42,531 nt of DNA from Phycisphaerae bacterium (GTDB lineage: Bacteria; Planctomycetota; Phycisphaerae; JAJVII01). Positions 24,751-36,240 of this stretch are shown one piece after another. A program made the position numbers and the translations under genes. How positions within the stretch are numbered: position 1 is the first letter of the stretch; every line of letters begins with the position of its first letter. The DNA lies in contig JAJVII010000031.1 in NCBI GenBank assembly GCA_022072085.1, positions 1-42,531 on the forward strand. Direction: 5' to 3'. Below the pieces are notes generated by a model that did no database searches, had not been told where the DNA came from, and saw only the letters and a program-made list of their open reading frames with translations.

Positions 24751-25272
24751 ATGCCCATGCCCGTGTCGCGGAGAATCGGCCTGCTGCGGATGCTGCCGCA
24801 GTTGGTCGCGATGGCGGCGGTCGGATTCGGCCTGTCGCGGCTGGGGCTGTTCCGCCTCGTGTTCGTCAACTACGTGCTGGGCGTCTTCCTCGTCCTGACC
24901 TACCGCTACGTCGTGCTGAACACGGTGACGCGGCATCACATGCTGGGCATCCGTCGGGCCCGGGCGGGGGACTACGGGCAGGCGGCCGATCGGTTCGTCC
25001 GCAGCCTCGAATTCTTCTCCCGCTTCCCCGTGCTGGACACCTGGCGGTCGCTGCTGTTCCTCTCGCCGGAGCGATACGGCTATCGCGAGCTGGCGTTGAC
25101 TAACCTGGGGCTGTGCTACCTGCACATGGAGCGGTTCGCCGAGGCCGAGCGGTGCCTGGCCGACTGCGTCAAGCTGCACCCGGGCAACCTGCTGGCCCGC
25201 GCGGCCCTGGAGATGGTCCGAATGCGGCTGGAGTTGGCGGACCCGGCCGCGGGCGAGGGGCGCGAAGAATGA
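24751..25272 (+). CDS. Small membrane protein with TPR-like repeats
   Basis: A 173-residue protein not assigned to a named family. The N-terminal third has two likely membrane segments (residues ~12-50: MLPQLVAMAAVGFGLSRL and LVFVNYVLGVFLVLTYRYVVL). The rest looks like tetratricopeptide repeats (RRARAGDYGQAADRFVRSLEFF, LTNLGLCYLHMERFAEAERC, CVKLHPGN), probably facing the cytoplasm or periplasm as a protein-docking surface. The ATG at 24751 has GGAGG at 24739-24743, 7 nt upstream. It follows galE by 13 bp and overlaps the next gene in an ATGA, so it is co-translated with the phosphatase-fold lipoprotein. Confidence 0.7.
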   Translation: MPMPVSRRIGLLRMLPQLVAMAAVGFGLSRLGLFRLVFVNYVLGVFLVLTYRYVVLNTVTRHHMLGIRRARAGDYGQAADRFVRSLEFFSRFPVLDTWRSLLFLSPERYGYRELALTNLGLCYLHMERFAEAERCLADCVKLHPGNLLARAALEMVRMRLELADPAAGEGREE

Positions 25273-26171
25273 AGCGGTCCGCGCTGGTTATCCTGCTGTT
25301 GGCGCTGCCGATGATGCTCGGCTCGTGCCGCGGGCGGTCGGACCCGCCGAGCCGGCAGCCTGAGGCCGCTGTGCCGGACGCCCGGGCGCTGCCGGCGACA
25401 CTGCCGCCCCCGACGGCGCCGGCCACGTCGCAGCCGGACGCCGTCGCCCAGCCCACCGGCCCGGCGGTGACGGCCGTTACCTGGAACATCCTCTTCGCCC
25501 GGCGGGGGACGCCCGAGGCCATTGCGGCGGCTGTCGGGGCCCGCGGGCCCGACGTGGTGTTCCTCCAAGAGTGCCCGCCGCCGCTGGCGGCCAGGATCGC
25601 CGGCTTCCTCCGCCTGCACGTCGCTGACGTGGGCCCGCTGCTGGGCCCGGGCGAGTCGATCGAGACGGCCATCCTCTGCCGCGTGCCCCTCCGCCGGGTC
25701 GGGCTGATCCGCGAGCAGGGCCGCGTCTTCGCGGTGCAGGCCATCGCGACGCTGGGCGGCCGCGACGTTCACCTGGTCTGCGTCCACCAGAAGTCGACGC
25801 ACCCCGGTTCGGTCCGGGAGATGGCCGAGACATCGGCGCTGCGGATGTCGCAGACGACGACGCTGCTGGAGGCGACCGAGGCGATGGCCGGCGCGGTGGT
25901 CATGGGCGGCGACTTCAATGAGGGGGCTACGTCTCTGTCGATGGAGCGTCTGGGCCGCCGGTTCGCGCACGCATTCTCCCAGGCCGGCCACGGCAGCGGC
26001 ATCACCTTTCCCGATTTCGCGGGCGGGCTCCAGATAGATCACGTATATTGCACGCGCGATCTGGCGGCTGTGGATTGCTTTGTCGCCCCGGCCGGCCTGA
26101 GCGACCACCGGATGGTCGTCGCCCGGCTGCGGTTCATGCGGCCTCAACCCGAGACGCAGAGCGATGAATGA
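25269..26171 (+). CDS. Endonuclease/exonuclease/phosphatase-fold lipoprotein
   Basis: A 300-residue exported protein. The signal peptide ends LPMMLGSC, a lipobox-like site, and is followed by a Pro/Ala-rich spacer. The catalytic fold then shows the family's metal and phosphate residues: VTWNILF, VFLQEC (Glu), VCVHQKS, MGGDFNEG (Asp-Asn), LQIDHVYC and LSDHRMVVA (Asp-His). The family cleaves phosphodiesters in nucleic acids, inositol phosphates or sphingomyelin-type lipids, and the substrate here cannot be told. An extracytoplasmic location argues for scavenging or for an envelope phospholipid or glycan substrate. The start overlaps the previous stop (ATGA), and its 3' end overlaps the next gene by 8 bp. 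Confidence 0.8.
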   Translation: MKRSALVILLLALPMMLGSCRGRSDPPSRQPEAAVPDARALPATLPPPTAPATSQPDAVAQPTGPAVTAVTWNILFARRGTPEAIAAAVGARGPDVVFLQECPPPLAARIAGFLRLHVADVGPLLGPGESIETAILCRVPLRRVGLIREQGRVFAVQAIATLGGRDVHLVCVHQKSTHPGSVREMAETSALRMSQTTTLLEATEAMAGAVVMGGDFNEGATSLSMERLGRRFAHAFSQAGHGSGITFPDFAGGLQIDHVYCTRDLAAVDCFVAPAGLSDHRMVVARLRFMRPQPETQSDE

Positions 26172-27324: not shown

Positions 27325-27346
27325 GATTGTGCGAAAGGGGAGCGAA

Positions 27347-29242
27347 ATGGACGTAACCCATCACGCCGCCGCCTGCACGACGCGGGCCGCGCGGACCGCA
27401 ACGCTGGCGCTTATGCTGCTGGCCGTGGCGGTGCTGGCCGGTTCGTGCAGGCGCGACGCCGGGCCATCGACCTCCAGGCCCGTCTCGGCGGGCGCCGTGC
27501 CACCTGCGGCGGATGACGGCCGTCCCACGCTCGTCATCGACGCGCCCATGCCGGGCTACACCCCCGAGCGGGTCGCTGACTGCGTGGCCGTCCTGCTCGA
27601 ACCCGCCCTCAGGTCACTGCCGGAACTGGCCGACATGCAGTCGACAAGCAGCTTCGGCTGGGCGCAGATCGTGCTGCGGTTCAAACCCGGTTGCGATTTC
27701 GACGCCGCCGCTCGGGCCGCCGGATCGGCCATCGATAAGGCCTCGAATCGCCCGCCCGGGCTCGCCGAGGGGATCACGATTCGGCGTCTGGACCCTTGTG
27801 AACTGCCGATGCTCTACCTGGTCGTCTCCGCGACCGACGCCGCAGCGTCGCCGGCCGACATGCGCGACTGGTGCCGATGGATCATCCAGCCAAGCATCAA
27901 CAGCGCTTTCGGCGTCGCCGATGCCAGCATCTTCGGCGGCGGCGTGCGTGAGACCCGGGTCCAGCTCGACCCGGCCCGGCTGACGGCCCGAGGGCTGTCG
28001 GTTGACGACGTCCTTGCGGCGCTGAAGAAGGCGAGAGACGCCGTTGCCCCGACGGTGACGACGACGCCGTCGGAGGTGAAGGTGGCCACCGTCGCGGAAC
28101 AGCCCATCGATTCGATCGTGGTGGCGATGCGTGACGGTCAGCCGATTCGCCTGGACGATCTGGCGACGATAACGCAGACCTGCGCCGACAACGGCGGGGC
28201 CGCCTGGGTAGGGTCCAAGGCGGGCTCCGGCCGTGCGATGGTGCTGGCCGTCCGCCGATCGTTCGGGAGCGATCCGGCCGAGGTGACGGCGGCGTTGCAG
28301 GCGGCGCTGGAGGAACTCCGCCGGGCGCTGCCGCCTTCGGTGAAGCTGGCGCCGATCGATCCGCACGACCGGGCGCGGGCCGTGATCTGCTCGATCCGAT
28401 GGGACGCGGGGGTGCCCCGGGGCCTGCGCGGCGCCCGGCTGAAGAATGTCGTCGACATCCTTGGCACGCATCCCGCGGCAGCATCGGTGGTCGCGATGAT
28501 GCAGGACGCGGAGGCCCCGGACAGCGACGGTCCCCCCCTTGCGCTGGTCACGCTGGCGCCCGAAGTGCATGACGCGGGGCGCGTCATCGAGGACCTTCGG
28601 CTGAGACTGGCCATGCCCGGGGGCGTCGTGCAGATGCGGATGGCCGGCGCGGGACCGGCCGGCATGCGGATGACCGGGGCGGCGTGGCACTACCGGCTGA
28701 CCGGGCCGGACGCGGGAGCGCTCCACCATGCCGCCTGCCTGCTGGTCGCACGGCTGGGGCAGATCGCGGGCCTGACCGACATCGCGTCGGACGTGGTTCT
28801 TGGCGGGGCGATTCTTGATCTGGCCGTCGATCCAGAGAAGGCGGCGAAATTAGGCTTGAATCCGGCGCACGTCTCCGATTTCGTCGACGCGGCGAGGGGC
28901 CGACGAATCGAGGCGCTGCCGGGCGGGCGGCTGATCCGCGTCGAATTCTCGAAGTCCTCGCCGGACGTTCGCGACCTGCTCGACCTGACGATACCGACCC
29001 CCGGCGGATGGCACGCCCCGCTGCGGAGCATCGTGAACGTTGCGGGGCGGCCTGGCGGGCTCACTCCCATTCGACGGATGAACGGACAGGCGGCCGAGAC
29101 GGTTTCGTGGAACCTCGCGCCCGGTGCGTCGGAGGCCAGGATGCGGGCGGCCGTCGAGAAGGCGGCGGCCGATGCGTTGCCGGCCGGCGTGACCGGCGCG
29201 TTCGTCGCCGCCGACGCGGCCGGGACGGCGGGTGTCAATTAG
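27347..29242 (+). CDS. RND-transporter porter-domain lipoprotein lacking all transmembrane helices
   Basis: A 631-residue protein that matches the two periplasmic halves of RND pumps (CzcA/AcrB type) but not their membrane parts. A lipoprotein-type signal ends LAGSC (Cys34). Residues ~60-340 follow the first porter half: PMPGYTPERVADCVAVLLEP, STSSFGWAQIVLRFKPG, FGGGVRETRVQLDPARLTAR, GQPIRLDDLATI and LPPSVKLAPID. Only about 25 residues replace TM2-TM6. Residues ~365-625 follow the second half (LGQIAGLTDIASDVVLGGA, AAKLGLNPAHVSDFV, DLTIPTPGGWHAPLRSI). No other hydrophobic segment is long enough to span a membrane. AAGGGGAG precedes the ATG at 27347. Membrane-fusion and TolC-like partners are absent nearby. 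Proton-driven transport is impossible without TM4/TM10, so it probably binds or hands over a ligand. Confidence 0.85.
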   Translation: MDVTHHAAACTTRAARTATLALMLLAVAVLAGSCRRDAGPSTSRPVSAGAVPPAADDGRPTLVIDAPMPGYTPERVADCVAVLLEPALRSLPELADMQSTSSFGWAQIVLRFKPGCDFDAAARAAGSAIDKASNRPPGLAEGITIRRLDPCELPMLYLVVSATDAAASPADMRDWCRWIIQPSINSAFGVADASIFGGGVRETRVQLDPARLTARGLSVDDVLAALKKARDAVAPTVTTTPSEVKVATVAEQPIDSIVVAMRDGQPIRLDDLATITQTCADNGGAAWVGSKAGSGRAMVLAVRRSFGSDPAEVTAALQAALEELRRALPPSVKLAPIDPHDRARAVICSIRWDAGVPRGLRGARLKNVVDILGTHPAAASVVAMMQDAEAPDSDGPPLALVTLAPEVHDAGRVIEDLRLRLAMPGGVVQMRMAGAGPAGMRMTGAAWHYRLTGPDAGALHHAACLLVARLGQIAGLTDIASDVVLGGAILDLAVDPEKAAKLGLNPAHVSDFVDAARGRRIEALPGGRLIRVEFSKSSPDVRDLLDLTIPTPGGWHAPLRSIVNVAGRPGGLTPIRRMNGQAAETVSWNLAPGASEARMRAAVEKAAADALPAGVTGAFVAADAAGTAGVN

Positions 29243-29279: not shown

Positions 29280-30323
29280 ATGCGGATCCTCGTCGACGTC
29301 AAGCATCCCGCCGACGTGCTGCTGCTGGCCGCGGTGCGCCGGGCGCTGCTGGAACGCGGCGACGAGGTCATCGTCACGTCGCGGCCGAAGGATGAGACCG
29401 AAGCGCTGCTGGAGGCGATGTCGATCCCGCACACCTGCCTGGCCCCGATCCGCAGCGGCGTCGCGGGCATGGCCCTGGAACTGGCGATCCGCGCCCGGCG
29501 GATGTATCGCCTCGTCTCCCGCCGCCCGCCGGACTGCCTGATCGCCCGCGCGGGCATCACGGTCGGCATGGTCGGCCGGGCGTTGGGTCGGCCGAGCATT
29601 ACCATCGACGACACCGAAACCGCGACGCTCCAGGTCCGCCTGTTCACCCCGCTGGCCGACGCGATCTGGACCGGCCTGGGCTACGGGCGCACGTTCGGCG
29701 GCAAGCAGGTCTGCGCCGACAGCCTCACGCAGTTGTTCTACACGCACCCGGCGCGGTTCACGCCCGACCCCGGCGCGCTGCGGGCCTGCGGCGTCGATCC
29801 CGCGCGGCCCTACGTCGTGGTGCGGGTGAACAGTTGGCGGGCCCTGCACGACATCGGCGTGCACGCCGCCAGCGACAGGGAGTTGGCCGACCTAGTCCGG
29901 GCGTTGGAGCCGATCGGTCGGCCGATCGTCAGCTCCGAGCGGCCGCTGCCCGAGTCGATGCGGCCGTATGCCAGTCCCGTGCCGGTCGCGCGGATGCTCG
30001 ACCTGCTGGCCTGCGCCCGGCTGTACGTGGGCGAAGGGGCGAGCATGGCGGCGGAGGCCGGCTGCCTGGGTGTGCCCGCGGTGCTGGTCAACCCGCTCAG
30101 CCGACGCGGCTACCTGGACTTCCTCGGCCAACGGTTCGGGCATGTCGCGACGATCCGCACGCCGGAGGAGGCCCTGGCGGCGGCGAAGGGCCTGATCTCG
30201 CGGCCTGCGGCGGAGAGCCCGGCGGCGCTGCGCAGCCGAATCGCCGCGGAACTGGCTGACCCGCTGCCGTCGCTGCTGACGCTTGTGGACCGCCTGGTCC
30301 GCCGCCGGTTGCAGGGGGGCTGA
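29280..30323 (+). CDS. DUF354-family glycosyltransferase-like protein
   Basis: A 347-residue protein resembling the DUF354 group, which has a GT-B fold distantly related to MurG and UDP-GlcNAc 2-epimerase. The N-terminal half begins MRILVDVKHPADVLLLAAV and contains DCLIARAGITVGMVGRALG and SITIDDTETATLQ. The C-terminal half has YVVVRVNSWRALHD, GRPIVSSERPLPESM, and the nucleotide-sugar-site-like LYVGEGASMAAEAGCLGVPA. It has no signal peptide. Members are found in polysaccharide biosynthesis loci, which suits the galE-led cluster. The ATG at 29280 lies 37 bp after the previous stop with no strong Shine-Dalgarno sequence; an in-frame GTG at 29232 overlaps the upstream gene. Confidence 0.75.
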   Translation: MRILVDVKHPADVLLLAAVRRALLERGDEVIVTSRPKDETEALLEAMSIPHTCLAPIRSGVAGMALELAIRARRMYRLVSRRPPDCLIARAGITVGMVGRALGRPSITIDDTETATLQVRLFTPLADAIWTGLGYGRTFGGKQVCADSLTQLFYTHPARFTPDPGALRACGVDPARPYVVVRVNSWRALHDIGVHAASDRELADLVRALEPIGRPIVSSERPLPESMRPYASPVPVARMLDLLACARLYVGEGASMAAEAGCLGVPAVLVNPLSRRGYLDFLGQRFGHVATIRTPEEALAAAKGLISRPAAESPAALRSRIAAELADPLPSLLTLVDRLVRRRLQGG

Positions 30324-30970: not shown

Positions 30971-31092
30971 CTTGACTGAGGACTGCCGCTCGGCCTGCCC
31001 CCCCTGTATTTCCAATCGGCGATGGGATAGGATGGCGGCTCGCTGAGCGGCTCAGGCAATTACCTTCACCCGTTCCAGGAGTGCCGGAATCC

Positions 31093-33894
31093 ATGTCACT
31101 TAAAGCCGTCAAGATTCACGTCGATGTCCCGCAGCTCTACCTGCACACGGAGGAGGACCGCGAGTTCCTCAAGGTCGGCCAGAAGCTGACGGGCTACGTC
31201 CAGCTCGACGGCCCGGGTCGGCCGAAGTCCATCGAGATCCGCTGGGTCGACAGCCACAACCGCGTGCTCGGTCGGTCGGCGGGCAAGCTCGACGCCTACC
31301 AGCGGCGCGTTCACTTCGAGTTCCAAGTGAACCAGAGCCCGTTCTGGGTCCACTTCATCGAGTGCGACATCGACGGGAAGACGCAGAGCGAGCGGGCCCA
31401 ATTCGCGATCTCGCCGGTGCGGGAGGGCTGGTGGAGCGCCCCGGCCATCACCTGGGCCAACTACCCCAGCGGCGATTTCTACGACCGGCTGCAGGAAGTG
31501 GGCGTCAACGGACACATCGCCTATCGCACCGCGCCGTTCGACCACGTCGCCCGCAGCGGCATGCGGTTCTATGTGGACCAGATGGCGTACTTCAACATCT
31601 CGCTCTATCACCGGCCGTTCAAGACCTACTGGGAAACCGCGCCGCTGCCGACCGGGTCGGTCGGGCATTTCAGCGACCACTGGAAGACCCTGATCGAGCA
31701 GTACAAGCGGCTGCGGGCGCAGGCGAAGAAGGAGGGCGTGCAGATCAGCCGAAATGCCCACGCCCGCAAGCTGCTGTGGCGGCGGCACTGCCCCAACGAC
31801 CCGGGCACGTGGACGATCACGGCTGAGCGGGTCCAGGCCGTCGTCCGACAGCACAAGGGCTATCGGCCGCTCTTCTTCAACATCGCCGACGAGGCGGGCA
31901 TCACCGACCAGACGCGACCGTTCGACTTCTGCTACTGCGACTGGTGCATGGACCAGTTCCGCCTCAAGCTCCAGAAACGCTACGGCACGCTGACGGAGCT
32001 GAACGCGCAGTGGGGGACGGATTTCGCGACCTGGGGCGAGGTCTTTCCACTGACCTGCGACGAGACGATGGCCGCCCAGGGCAAGGGCCGGCCGTGGAAC
32101 TTTGCCTCCTGGGCCGACCACCGCGAGTTCATGGACGACACCTTCGCCGACCACTTCCGCCGCATGCGGCTGGTCGGCAAGGACGTGGACCCGATCACCG
32201 ACTTCAGCCAGGGCGGCTGCCAGTGGCCGACCATCTACGGCGGCTGGGACTACGCCAAGGTCACCCGCGACATCGACGCCCTGATCCCCTACAACCTCGG
32301 CGGCAACCAGGAGATCATCCGCTCGGTGCGGCCGAACGTGAAGAACCTCAGCCCGTTCTTCGGCGACGACGCGCGGCACGTCCGCGGCCTGTGGAGCGCC
32401 TACATCCACGGCGACGCGGGGGTGATCTTCTGGGACAACGACGAGAAGAAGGGGCGATTCGTCACGCGGCCCAGCGGCAAGCTGGCCCACCGCGGCAAGG
32501 TCTTCGGCCCGGCGCTGCGCGAGATGCGCGGCGGCTACGCCCAGCAGTTCCAGACCTGGAGCCGCGAAGATGACCCCATCGGGCTGCTCTACAGCCAGCC
32601 CAATGAACGGGCGCACTGGATGCTCGAAACCCTCGTCGACGACGTCGAGTGGTTCGACCGCGTCTACCGCAGCCGCTACGTCCGCACGCGATTCGGCTGG
32701 CAGAACCTCATCGAGGACCGCCAGCTCCAGTATCGCTATGTCAGCTACCTCGACATCGACGAAGGCAACATCGACCTCTCGCGATTCAGGATGCTGGTGC
32801 TGCCCGAGACGATCGCGCTGTCCGACACGCTGGTGAGGGCCCTGCGTGATTACGTGGTCAACGGCGGCGTGCTGGTGGCCGATGGTCGGGTCGGCAGGAT
32901 GACCGCCAACTGCCGCCAGACCGCGGCCGGACTGCTGGACGACCTGTTCGGCGTCACGAGCCCGAAGGAACTGAACCTCAAGTGCGGCGCCAAGCTCAAG
33001 GCCGTGTCCGCGTCCGAGGAGCCCTGGCTTGCTTTCGACTCGAACATCTCGCATCTCAATGCCGCAGACGCCGGCCTGCGTCTGGCCCGCAGCGGCAACG
33101 CCGAGGCGGCCGCAGTGGCCGGGCAGGCGCCGGCCATCATCCGTCGCCAGGTCGGCAGCGGCTGGGCCGTGCTGCTCAACATCGAGGTCGGCAGCTATGT
33201 GGCCGATCGCTACCTGGCCGACAGCCCGCGAGGCCAACTGCTCCGCGAACTGCTGGACGTTCTGTGCGAGTTGGCCGGCGTCGAACTGGCCCTGGACGTT
33301 ACCAGCGACGACGCGGTCGGCACGATGGGCGTCGAGGTCACTCGCTTCTCGCAGCGGGGCTGCACGATGGTGGCTGCGTTGCTCAATCGCCAGTTCCGCG
33401 TCAGCGGCATCGGCGAGACGCTCCAGGAGAAAGACCTGGAGGCGTTCGAGAGCGACCGCAAGCTGACCCTCCACTTCCCCGATGTGGCCTTCACCTGGAA
33501 CTCTCGCACCGGCGAATACCTCGGCCACGTCGACCAGGTGACCCAGAAGCTGCCGTGCCTCACGCCGCTGATCGTCAGCCGACTTCCGTACCGCGTCCGC
33601 GGCATCGACCTGACGCTGCCGGGCAAGCCGACGCCGGGCGGCCGAACGGCCGACGTCGTCGTCCGCATCAAGGCCGACGGCGAGTTGGCTGACCACGTCG
33701 TCCGCGTCGACGTTTATCAGCCGGACGGCACGTGGTGCTACTGGTACAGCGACAGCGTGGTGGCGGCCGGCGGGGAAGCACGCCTGGCAATTCCGCTGGC
33801 GTTCAACGACCCGGCCGGGCGATGGAAGGTGACCGTCCGCGACACGGTGACCGGCGCGACGCGGAGTGGGACGCTGCGGGTAGGCAAAGCGTAA
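31093..33894 (+). CDS. GH42-like glycoside hydrolase (beta-galactosidase family)
   Basis: A 933-residue protein. An N-terminal beta-sandwich (residues ~1-110) precedes a TIM-barrel region. The latter contains FCYCDWCMDQFRLKLQKRYG and LTELNAQWGTDFATWGEV, a combination characteristic of GH42 and related beta-galactosidases, in which such Cys residues often bind zinc. FFNIADEAGI may hold the acid/base Glu. About residues 560-720 look like the class-I-amidotransferase-like trimerisation domain (LVLPETIALSDTLVRALRDY, VVNGGVLVADGRVG). A beta-rich C-terminus follows. No signal peptide is present, so it would act in the cytoplasm on imported sugars, unless exported another way. The ATG at 31093 has AGGAG 11 nt upstream; the GTG at 31081 overlaps that site. 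The catalytic nucleophile is not identified, so the family label is moderate. Confidence 0.65.
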   Translation: MSLKAVKIHVDVPQLYLHTEEDREFLKVGQKLTGYVQLDGPGRPKSIEIRWVDSHNRVLGRSAGKLDAYQRRVHFEFQVNQSPFWVHFIECDIDGKTQSERAQFAISPVREGWWSAPAITWANYPSGDFYDRLQEVGVNGHIAYRTAPFDHVARSGMRFYVDQMAYFNISLYHRPFKTYWETAPLPTGSVGHFSDHWKTLIEQYKRLRAQAKKEGVQISRNAHARKLLWRRHCPNDPGTWTITAERVQAVVRQHKGYRPLFFNIADEAGITDQTRPFDFCYCDWCMDQFRLKLQKRYGTLTELNAQWGTDFATWGEVFPLTCDETMAAQGKGRPWNFASWADHREFMDDTFADHFRRMRLVGKDVDPITDFSQGGCQWPTIYGGWDYAKVTRDIDALIPYNLGGNQEIIRSVRPNVKNLSPFFGDDARHVRGLWSAYIHGDAGVIFWDNDEKKGRFVTRPSGKLAHRGKVFGPALREMRGGYAQQFQTWSREDDPIGLLYSQPNERAHWMLETLVDDVEWFDRVYRSRYVRTRFGWQNLIEDRQLQYRYVSYLDIDEGNIDLSRFRMLVLPETIALSDTLVRALRDYVVNGGVLVADGRVGRMTANCRQTAAGLLDDLFGVTSPKELNLKCGAKLKAVSASEEPWLAFDSNISHLNAADAGLRLARSGNAEAAAVAGQAPAIIRRQVGSGWAVLLNIEVGSYVADRYLADSPRGQLLRELLDVLCELAGVELALDVTSDDAVGTMGVEVTRFSQRGCTMVAALLNRQFRVSGIGETLQEKDLEAFESDRKLTLHFPDVAFTWNSRTGEYLGHVDQVTQKLPCLTPLIVSRLPYRVRGIDLTLPGKPTPGGRTADVVVRIKADGELADHVVRVDVYQPDGTWCYWYSDSVVAAGGEARLAIPLAFNDPAGRWKVTVRDTVTGATRSGTLRVGKA

Positions 33895-33930: not shown

Positions 33931-33957
33931 GACCTGGTCACTTCGGTGAACCAGGTC
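33931..33957 (+). promoter_or_regulatory. UUCG-capped hairpin between the GH42-like gene and the next gene
   Basis: GACCTGGT (33931-33938) pairs with ACCAGGTC (33950-33957). Inside it CAC pairs with GTG around a TTCG tetraloop, leaving one bulged A (33949). The stem is 11 bp and very stable. No T run follows. It could end the GH42-like transcript with help from Rho, or form the first element of a structured ~130-nt leader for the gene starting at 34060. I could not match the leader to a known riboswitch class. Confidence 0.5.
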
Positions 33958-34059
33958 CGGCAACCCATACGGGGTCGGTCGGGAACCCGGCGGCTTTTCG
34001 TGCGTCCAATGTCATCGGCAGGGGGACGCTATGTTCGCACTGCGAAGGAGGCAGAGGTC

Positions 34060-36240
34060 GTGACAACGTTGCGATGGAACATACTGCTGGGCGGCCTGGT
34101 GGCGATCGGTCTGACGGGCGCGATGTTGCTGACACCTGGGCCGGGCCTGGCGGCTGAGGGCCTGATCGCGGCGGCCCCGCCGGTGGGCGGCGCAGCCGAC
34201 GAAGGGGCCCTGGCGGCGCAGGTGAAGGGCGCCGGCCTGGTGCTCATCGGCAAGGTGACTGAAGCCAAGGCCGGCATTCAGACCCGCACCAATCCGCCGC
34301 GGACGCAGTATTCGATGACTTTCGACCTGGAGAGCATGCAGGTCCTCAAGGGCGAGAAGCCGGCCGCCTCGGCCCGCTTCATCTACTGGCACAGCGGCGA
34401 CCAGGCCTCCGCGCCGCAGGCCGACAGGAAGTACGTCGCCGTGGTCACTACCAGCGGGCGCGGGCTCTACGTCGGTCGACTCCTGGAGGCGACCGACGCC
34501 AACGTCGCCGACGCCAGGAAGGCTGTCGATCAGGCTGCGAAGGAAGCCCCGGCTGCTGACGGCGGGGCGGCGTCCGAGACGATCTTCGCGGCCGTCAACC
34601 AGGGCCAGGCGGTCTACGTTGCCAAGCTGACCAGCGCCCAGGCGGTTGCCCAGACCATGAGCATGCCGCCCACAATCATGTACGTGCTGAGTTTCGAGGT
34701 GACCGACGTGCTTCGCGGCCCGAAGGTGACCAAGCTCTCGGCCCGATTCTCCCAGCGCCAGGGCGCCGAGCCGGCGTTGAACGTCGGCGACAAGTACATA
34801 ATCGTCGGAAACACGCCCGTGCCCGGCGCGATGCCCGGCGGCAACTTCGGGCCCGGTCGCATCCGCCCCATGCCGCAGCCGATTCCGCCGGTCCAGATCG
34901 TTCCCGACGGGGGTGTGCAAATCCAGCCGGGCCTCCGCATCGAACGGATCGACCCGCAGCCGGCCCCGGCGCCGGAACTTCAGAGCGATGTGGCCGTCCC
35001 GCTGGGCGGGGCGATCCAGGGCGCCCAGCCGGCGCTCAAGCCGGTGATCCGGCCCATGCCGCCCCAGCCGGTCGATGACGTCGCCGACGACGTCGGCGCC
35101 GACAACGGCGGCGACAACGGCCAGCAAAACAACGATCAGCCGATGACCATGCAGATCACCTCGCTGTTTACGGCCACCGATGCGAACCTGGCGATGGCCA
35201 AGAAGGCGGTCGGCCTGCCGCTGGCCTGGACGATGGACGGCAAGGGCGAGGCGATCTCACCCTTTGCCGATCTGGGTGACAAGGCCTGGCCCAAGGCGGT
35301 CGACTACAAGTTCCAGCCGGCCGGCGGGGTCAAGTGCAGCAAGACCGGTCGGCCGGCGCTGCTGGCCGGGGCGGACGTGTCGATCAGGGTCGAGCAGGTG
35401 CCCGCCGCCAAGCTGGAGAAATTCAAGAACCCCTACGGCGACGGCAAGTTCACGGTCGTCGTGACCAACAACGGCAAGGCGGCCGTCGAGGTGCCGGCCC
35501 TGCTGACCGACGGCAAGGCGATCCTGTGGGCCGACTCGCTGGTGATCGTCGAGCGGGGCAAGGCGCACCTGCTGCCCGGCGCTGGGGCGGCGGGCAAGGA
35601 CGTGCGCCCGGTCAAGCTGGAGCCCGGCCAGGGTGTGGCGGCTGAGGTGAACACGCTGACGCTCAAGGGCATCAGTTGGCCCCGGGGCGGCAGCCGCGTG
35701 AACTTCCAGTTCTGCCTGGGCGACCTGGGCGCGGACAACTTCTTCTACTACTACTCCGACCTGCACGACAAGATGCGCGAGGCTGCCGGCGCCGACGCGG
35801 CCAAGACCGTTCCGGCACCGGCCGTTCCGCAGGCCGGCGACTGGACCGACCTGTCCTCCGGCGAGGGTTGGTATAAGAATCAGGCAGGCAAGGAGCAGGA
35901 GTTCGTCGGCACGCTGGAGGCCGTCCCCAACGCCGACGTGCCCTCGACGCTCCAGCGGACCAGCTACTATCACCTGGGCGGCCGCACGATCTACACCGGC
36001 GCCAAGAAGATGGCCGCCCTGGACAGACTGGTCGGCAAGAAGGTCGTCATCCGCGGCAAGCCGTATGACATCAACCTGGAAGGCCAGGCTGTCAGCGAAA
36101 TATGGCCTGGTGCCATCCGCCCGGCTCGCGCGGACGATGCCGACAAGATACCGGCTGGGCAGGCTGAACCGCTGCGCCCCCTGATCCGCCCCGGACGCCC
36201 AATCGCCCCGCTTCCGCCCGGCGACCAGATGCACAACTGA
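34060..36240 (+). CDS. Exported protein with a duplicated NTR/OB-like domain
   Basis: A 726-residue protein with no confident family. The GTG at 34060 has AAGGAGG 8 nt upstream and starts a signal peptide (TTLRWNILLGGLVAIGLTGA...LAAEG). Two similar domains follow: residues ~45-160 (VLIGKVTEAKAG, YSMTFDLESMQVLKGEK, RKYVAVV) and ~180-270 (VYVAKLTSAQAVA, YVLSFEVTDVLRGPK, DKYIIVG). Both end by running into a LLEATDANVADARKAV or FTATDANLAMAKKAV helix, the second after a long linker. The pattern resembles TIMP/NTR-type OB folds that sense or bind metals or proteins. A Pro/Gln-rich linker lies between the domain core and a C-terminal region with another OB-like segment (GKKVVIRGKPYDIN). The periplasmic function is unknown. 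Confidence 0.6.
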   Translation: MTTLRWNILLGGLVAIGLTGAMLLTPGPGLAAEGLIAAAPPVGGAADEGALAAQVKGAGLVLIGKVTEAKAGIQTRTNPPRTQYSMTFDLESMQVLKGEKPAASARFIYWHSGDQASAPQADRKYVAVVTTSGRGLYVGRLLEATDANVADARKAVDQAAKEAPAADGGAASETIFAAVNQGQAVYVAKLTSAQAVAQTMSMPPTIMYVLSFEVTDVLRGPKVTKLSARFSQRQGAEPALNVGDKYIIVGNTPVPGAMPGGNFGPGRIRPMPQPIPPVQIVPDGGVQIQPGLRIERIDPQPAPAPELQSDVAVPLGGAIQGAQPALKPVIRPMPPQPVDDVADDVGADNGGDNGQQNNDQPMTMQITSLFTATDANLAMAKKAVGLPLAWTMDGKGEAISPFADLGDKAWPKAVDYKFQPAGGVKCSKTGRPALLAGADVSIRVEQVPAAKLEKFKNPYGDGKFTVVVTNNGKAAVEVPALLTDGKAILWADSLVIVERGKAHLLPGAGAAGKDVRPVKLEPGQGVAAEVNTLTLKGISWPRGGSRVNFQFCLGDLGADNFFYYYSDLHDKMREAAGADAAKTVPAPAVPQAGDWTDLSSGEGWYKNQAGKEQEFVGTLEAVPNADVPSTLQRTSYYHLGGRTIYTGAKKMAALDRLVGKKVVIRGKPYDINLEGQAVSEIWPGAIRPARADDADKIPAGQAEPLRPLIRPGRPIAPLPPGDQMHN

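Follow-up and report, generated by a model that had tools for sequence, protein, structure and literature searches.

A transmembrane-helix-less RND porter protein with a predicted lipoprotein signal in a Phycisphaerae bacterium

Genes at the locus

The window (the whole 42,531-nucleotide stretch of DNA that was analysed) carries P0001, an open reading frame for 631 residues on the forward strand (27347..29242, +; ORF 27347-29242). A Shine-Dalgarno-like sequence, AAAGGGGAG, can be read directly 5' of its ATG (27334..27342, +). The gene stands in a same-strand run that comprises an NDP-sugar epimerase, a TPR protein, an Exo_endo_phos-family protein, P0005, P0001 and a DUF354 protein. The Exo_endo_phos-family protein (25269..26171, +; family match) overlaps P0005 by 8 bases and starts with a lipoprotein-like signal of its own, MKRSALVILLLALPMMLGSC (LGSC). 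P0005, the upstream neighbour of P0001 (26164..27324, +), is a 386-residue protein with no match in Pfam, NCBIfam or the PDB (best E-value 0.32), and it was not found in seven relatives. The downstream neighbour, the DUF354 protein (29280..30323, +), has a family match; a search of the same-family genome did not recover it. Because P0005 and P0006 were not found in the sole same-family genome compared, the stretch around P0001 looks accessory. No HlyD-type adaptor, outer-membrane factor or pump gene was present among the neighbours scanned. Many true RND pumps are also unlinked to an adaptor or outer-membrane factor, so that an unlinked gene weighs little. Elsewhere in the window, a 764-residue frame without a Pfam match (33946-36240) adjoins a GH42-like protein (31081-33894).

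P0001 matches both porter halves of RND pumps

P0001 matched Pfam ACR_tran (PF00873) with an E-value of 1.1e-56 in two stretches. The nearest NCBIfam models were RND_permease_2, MdtC and MdtB, and MdtB was also the top sequence match in the PDB. We took 40 RND-gene stretches from the host's own genome and its phylum and built a hidden Markov model (HMM) from the first 20, which are full pumps. This pump HMM aligned to P0001 in two blocks: residues 59-345 paired with pump positions 50-337 (174.7 bits), and residues 367-628 with pump positions 593-865 (56 bits). Together with hydropathy, the Pfam and HMM matches mark the whole gene as coding for a TM-less RND porter protein, a predicted lipoprotein. 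As judged from its sequence, P0001 consists of both periplasmic halves of an MdtB/MdtC-related HAE-type RND pump, joined directly and predicted to be secreted.

Domain layout and fusion point

The chain begins with a predicted signal peptide in the place of TM1 (residues 1-33; 27347..27445, +), recognised by hydropathy and by the lipobox pattern LAGS|C (LLAVAVLAGSC in full). Cys34 (27446..27448, +) is the lipidation site predicted from this pattern and is followed by Arg at position +2. Residues 35-58 (27449..27520, +) form a hydrophilic tether, modelled mostly with pLDDT below 50. The N-terminal periplasmic half, PN1 and PN2 with DN, covers residues 59-345 (27521..28381, +) and is at most 35% identical to pumps. 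At the fusion point, residues 338-346 (28358..28384, +), the end of PN2 runs into the first strand of PC1 in the C-half alignments. The C-terminal half, PC1 and PC2 with a trimmed DC, takes up residues 346-631 (28382..29239, +), supported by the second HMM block, by C-half alignments and by a model of that half. The C-terminus falls where TM8 would start.

Mixed N-half/C-half alignments and full-pump alignments misplaced residues 346-400; the C-half was therefore aligned and folded alone. Here, residues 339-408 of P0001 paired gap-free with 558-627 of the pump L094 (mapped row), from which we conclude that PC1 is complete. The PC1 strand 345-352 and helix 358-374 were predicted with good confidence in the C-half model. 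About 227 residues of L094 (about 331-557, that is TM2-TM7) are absent at the fusion point, where the two halves adjoin with practically no linker. DN and DC, the funnel subdomains, have also been retained, apart from a 5-residue deletion at residue 252 in DN and a 4-residue deletion at residue 520 in DC.

A hydropathy scan of P0001 gave a single TM-like window, residues 14-32, which is the signal. In a control scan of L094, TM1, the TM2-7 block and the TM8-12 block were all visible. The 12 TM helices in two blocks of six are thus absent from P0001 by hydropathy, and the TM4/TM10 proton-relay residues are gone with the TM2-TM7 and TM8-TM12 regions. P0001 is RND-derived by descent, yet it lacks the features by which RND transporters are defined.

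These results largely agree with the first-pass annotation, every landmark of which is present in the translation. It had proposed that both porter halves (PN1-PN2, then PC1-PC2) are present, that all TM helices are missing, that a lipoprotein-type signal replaces TM1 and that the protein terminates just short of TM8; each of these points holds, the first through the two-block match to ACR_tran and the pump HMM. Its further statement that about 25 hydrophilic residues replace TM2-TM6 has to be revised: TM2-TM7 are missing instead, and the residues in question are β1-α1 of PC1.

Predicted fold

A structural model of full-length P0001 had a mean pLDDT of 63.6 and was weak at residues 338-444 because the alignment is misplaced there. 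When this model was searched against the PDB with Foldseek, crystal structures of AcrBper came out on top (7b8s, 5eno, 7b8r and 5en5; E-values down to 4.8e-28 over 572-589 residues), so that the proposed porter fold is supported by the retrieval of RND periplasmic structures. VIA-align of residues 43-630 gave Z-scores of about 20 to CusA, MexY, AcrB and AcrBper; CusA was highest (Z 20.6, rmsd 8.9 over 374 residues), with many RND rows tied. For the full-length model, global TM-scores were low (about 0.3) and rmsd values high, which indicates that this model is unreliable as to how the two halves lie relative to each other. The C-half folded alone reached a pLDDT of 78 and matched CusA, BpeF and MdtB.

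Relatives and phylogeny

No second TM-less copy was found in 41 relatives, 397 genomes of the class, 392 genomes of the phylum and 75 genomes of another class in the phylum (overlapping sets that amount to about 780 distinct Planctomycetota genomes), nor in two GTDB-wide contig scans. The 397- and 392-genome scans scored three candidates per genome, so that a TM-less relative as distant from P0001 as pumps could escape; the PF00873 matches in 101 relatives were the best ones among the matches listed, and short members could escape there as well. The host group is thinly sampled, with one other same-family genome in the comparison.

Every close match of P0001 was a pump, at most 35% identical, and either full-length or cut by a contig end. 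At all loci examined, RND frames shorter than 900 residues ran off the end of their locus, apart from P0001 itself and from L131, which was split between frames. As candidate TM-less relatives, the short frames in G020, G372, G024 and G043 were accordingly rejected as contig ends, and the one in G015:C2 as a pump split over frames. In that last case (L131 387-4525), the RND pump is spread over overlapping same-strand frames of 649, 173 and 743 codons, probably by a frameshift.

The host's own genome encodes six full RND pumps, none of them more than about 30% identical to P0001 over strong matches; the best match reaches 30% over part of the N-half. In a phylogenetic tree P0001 fell beside the MdtBC-like clade, and all six own pumps fell outside that clade. 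Exact placement is unsure, since P0001 fills 47% of the columns (in effect the N-half) and both P0001 and several own pumps are long-branched. The terminal branch of P0001 is about nine times as long as the median one (4.24 versus 0.49 changes per column).

It had been considered beforehand that P0001 might be an isolated deletion among full-length orthologues. The copy is indeed isolated, without an orthologue of the same layout, but no close full-length parent was found and the fold evolves under constraint.

Selection or decay

At pump positions that are uniformly hydrophobic, P0001 is hydrophobic (Ala included) at 89% in the N-half and 79% in the C-half, similar to what full pumps at equal divergence show. 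We compared P0001 with a neutral simulation in which a pump consensus drifted to the divergence of P0001 (200 runs). Hydrophobic core retention was 84% in P0001 versus 67 ± 4% under neutrality, and 77% of the changed core positions were still hydrophobic versus 46 ± 5%. P0001 contains no stop codons, whereas the neutral sequences acquired a mean of 8 (minimum 1 in 200 runs). The gene thus has neither stops nor frameshifts, and its core retention, above neutral, speaks against a lost fold constraint. Because core retention and the lack of stops exceed the outcome of simulated neutral decay, decay of P0001 is unlikely. Constraint is partly relaxed, given the length of the terminal branch. The first-pass annotation had taken the intact frame and the good Shine-Dalgarno site as signs against decay. 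The site is there and decay is not obvious, but at 68% GC long spurious frames arise often, and an open frame by itself therefore counts for little; the argument for selection lies in the simulation.

Codon usage of P0001 was the least adapted of the 22 genes in the window (0.063 bits per codon versus 0.19-0.44 in the others), and its GC3s was the lowest; L088, a true pump of the same genome, has a similarly low GC3 of 0.83. These values fit the most serious of the alternatives, which we nonetheless consider unlikely, namely that P0001 is a relic of a divergent RND pump whose TM blocks were taken by deletions and whose gene is drifting to loss. The singleton status in all scans, the very long branch and the lack of partner genes nearby point the same way. 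Moreover, the simulation spans the branch from end to end, together with any period in which the gene still coded for a pump. It is therefore compatible with a scenario in which an unsampled divergent pump lost its TM blocks recently. A relic would, however, have gone through three separate losses at domain borders (TM1 to signal, TM2-TM7 and TM8-TM12) with the frame kept, and it would have avoided the stops that every neutral run to the same divergence acquired and the poorer core retention of the simulation. Nor was a close full-length parent found in the own genome or in the genomes searched.

Proposed function

The structure of P0001 is well supported; its function we infer, and the claim concerns one gene in one metagenome-assembled genome. 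Proton coupling in RND pumps needs TM4 and TM10. P0001 has lost these regions and with them the means of proton coupling, in line with the earlier view that it is not an ordinary pump. A non-pump use of the RND fold is probable. Our preferred reading, held at about even confidence, is that P0001 is a lipid-anchored periplasmic binding or scaffold protein that derives from an RND porter. Under this reading it does not act as a pump, and it is probably no decoy for a close partner either.

According to this proposal, P0001 would be lipidated at Cys34 and would reside in the periplasm on a membrane leaflet, which by the enterobacterial rule would be that of the outer membrane, given Arg at +2. 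It would fold like the engineered AcrBper and perhaps trimerise. Without a proton relay it would presumably not pump. It may instead hold or bind a periplasmic ligand or partner through the cleft between porter subdomains or through the porter surface; we are less sure of these last two steps than of the others. The ligand would probably differ from the hydrophobic drug spectrum of AcrB, because the C-half aromatics and the Gly-rich switch loop are eroded. Aromatic residues make up 2.7% of the C-half versus about 7% in MdtC-like pumps, a loss that by itself says little, as two more distant true pumps are likewise aromatic-poor in this half. A hydrophobic pocket is not obviously kept. Taken together, the loss of aromatics and of the Gly-rich switch loop would speak weakly against AcrB-like polyspecific drug binding.

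Two other roles had been suggested for the protein, and both are weakened. In the first, P0001 would be built into the trimers of the cell's own full-length RND pumps, as a dominant-negative subunit or a regulator. It shares with pumps the porter and funnel parts through which trimer subunits touch one another, and six full pumps are available. All six nevertheless lie outside the MdtBC-like clade next to P0001 (with the uncertainty that long branches bring), the best match among them reaches 30% identity over part of the N-half, the DN part is 5 residues shorter and no pump gene adjoins P0001. With no close full-length partner in the cell, we regard this role as improbable.

In the second, P0001 would act from the outer-membrane side as an adaptor or passive conduit and dock to an outer-membrane factor via the top of the funnel. 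The lipoprotein signal with Arg at +2 would suit such a position, and DN and DC are present, but loops are trimmed in both, which weakens a docking role, and the neighbours scanned include no HlyD-type adaptor or outer-membrane factor; the chances of this role also appear slim. Finally, an assembly or binning artefact is highly improbable: although the genome is a draft of 72 contigs, the gene lies at least 13 kb from either contig end, the own genome has no parent pump sequence, and an artefact would need an in-frame join at a domain border plus an added lipoprotein signal.

We return to the binding or scaffold protein. P0001 may exemplify a class of RND-derived periplasmic lipoproteins that is natural and functional, and in which the porter, freed from the membrane motor, serves anew as a tethered protein for binding or scaffolding. 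Our confidence in this proposal is middling. Porter and motor of RND pumps are usually viewed as inseparable. If the proposal is true, selection can keep a porter for something other than proton-driven export, and P0001 offers a ready-made soluble porter with which to study what binds to the porter on its own and to ask whether the porter can cycle without the membrane domain.

Comparison with known systems

The SecDF and MmpL/HpnN branches of the RND superfamily have RND-type periplasmic domains and keep their TM helices; neither was among the sequence matches of P0001. To our knowledge, the TM-less RND layout is otherwise known only from an engineered laboratory construct. We found no description of a natural TM-less RND porter in the literature, as the first-pass annotation had supposed, in a search that left subscription papers mostly outside. 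SecDF has been classified as a branch of the RND superfamily (PMC8277102).

The CusA/CzcA heavy-metal pumps have the porter fold in common with P0001 and gave the highest VIA-align Z-score, but they match less well in sequence and have 12 TM helices. The closest sequence relatives are the MdtB/MdtC-like HAE-type permeases (NF033617, PF00873), to which both porter halves align end to end. P0001 differs from these pumps in having neither their 12 TM helices nor their proton relay, and it has lost their switch-loop glycines and most of their C-half aromatics.

The nearest counterpart in layout is AcrBper (PDB 5EN5, 5ENO and 7B8R-T). Like P0001, it joins the N- and C-half periplasmic parts without TM helices in about 570-610 residues. 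AcrBper, a soluble fusion of the two periplasmic loops of AcrB, is trimeric in its crystals and has doxycycline, fusidic acid and levofloxacin among its ligands (PMC8617272). It is a laboratory construct, whereas P0001 is natural, carries a lipoprotein signal, is essentially linker-free and is about 20% identical to it. P0001 thus repeats in nature the engineered AcrBper design: in AcrBper the porter was separated in the laboratory, and P0001 would be its natural counterpart.
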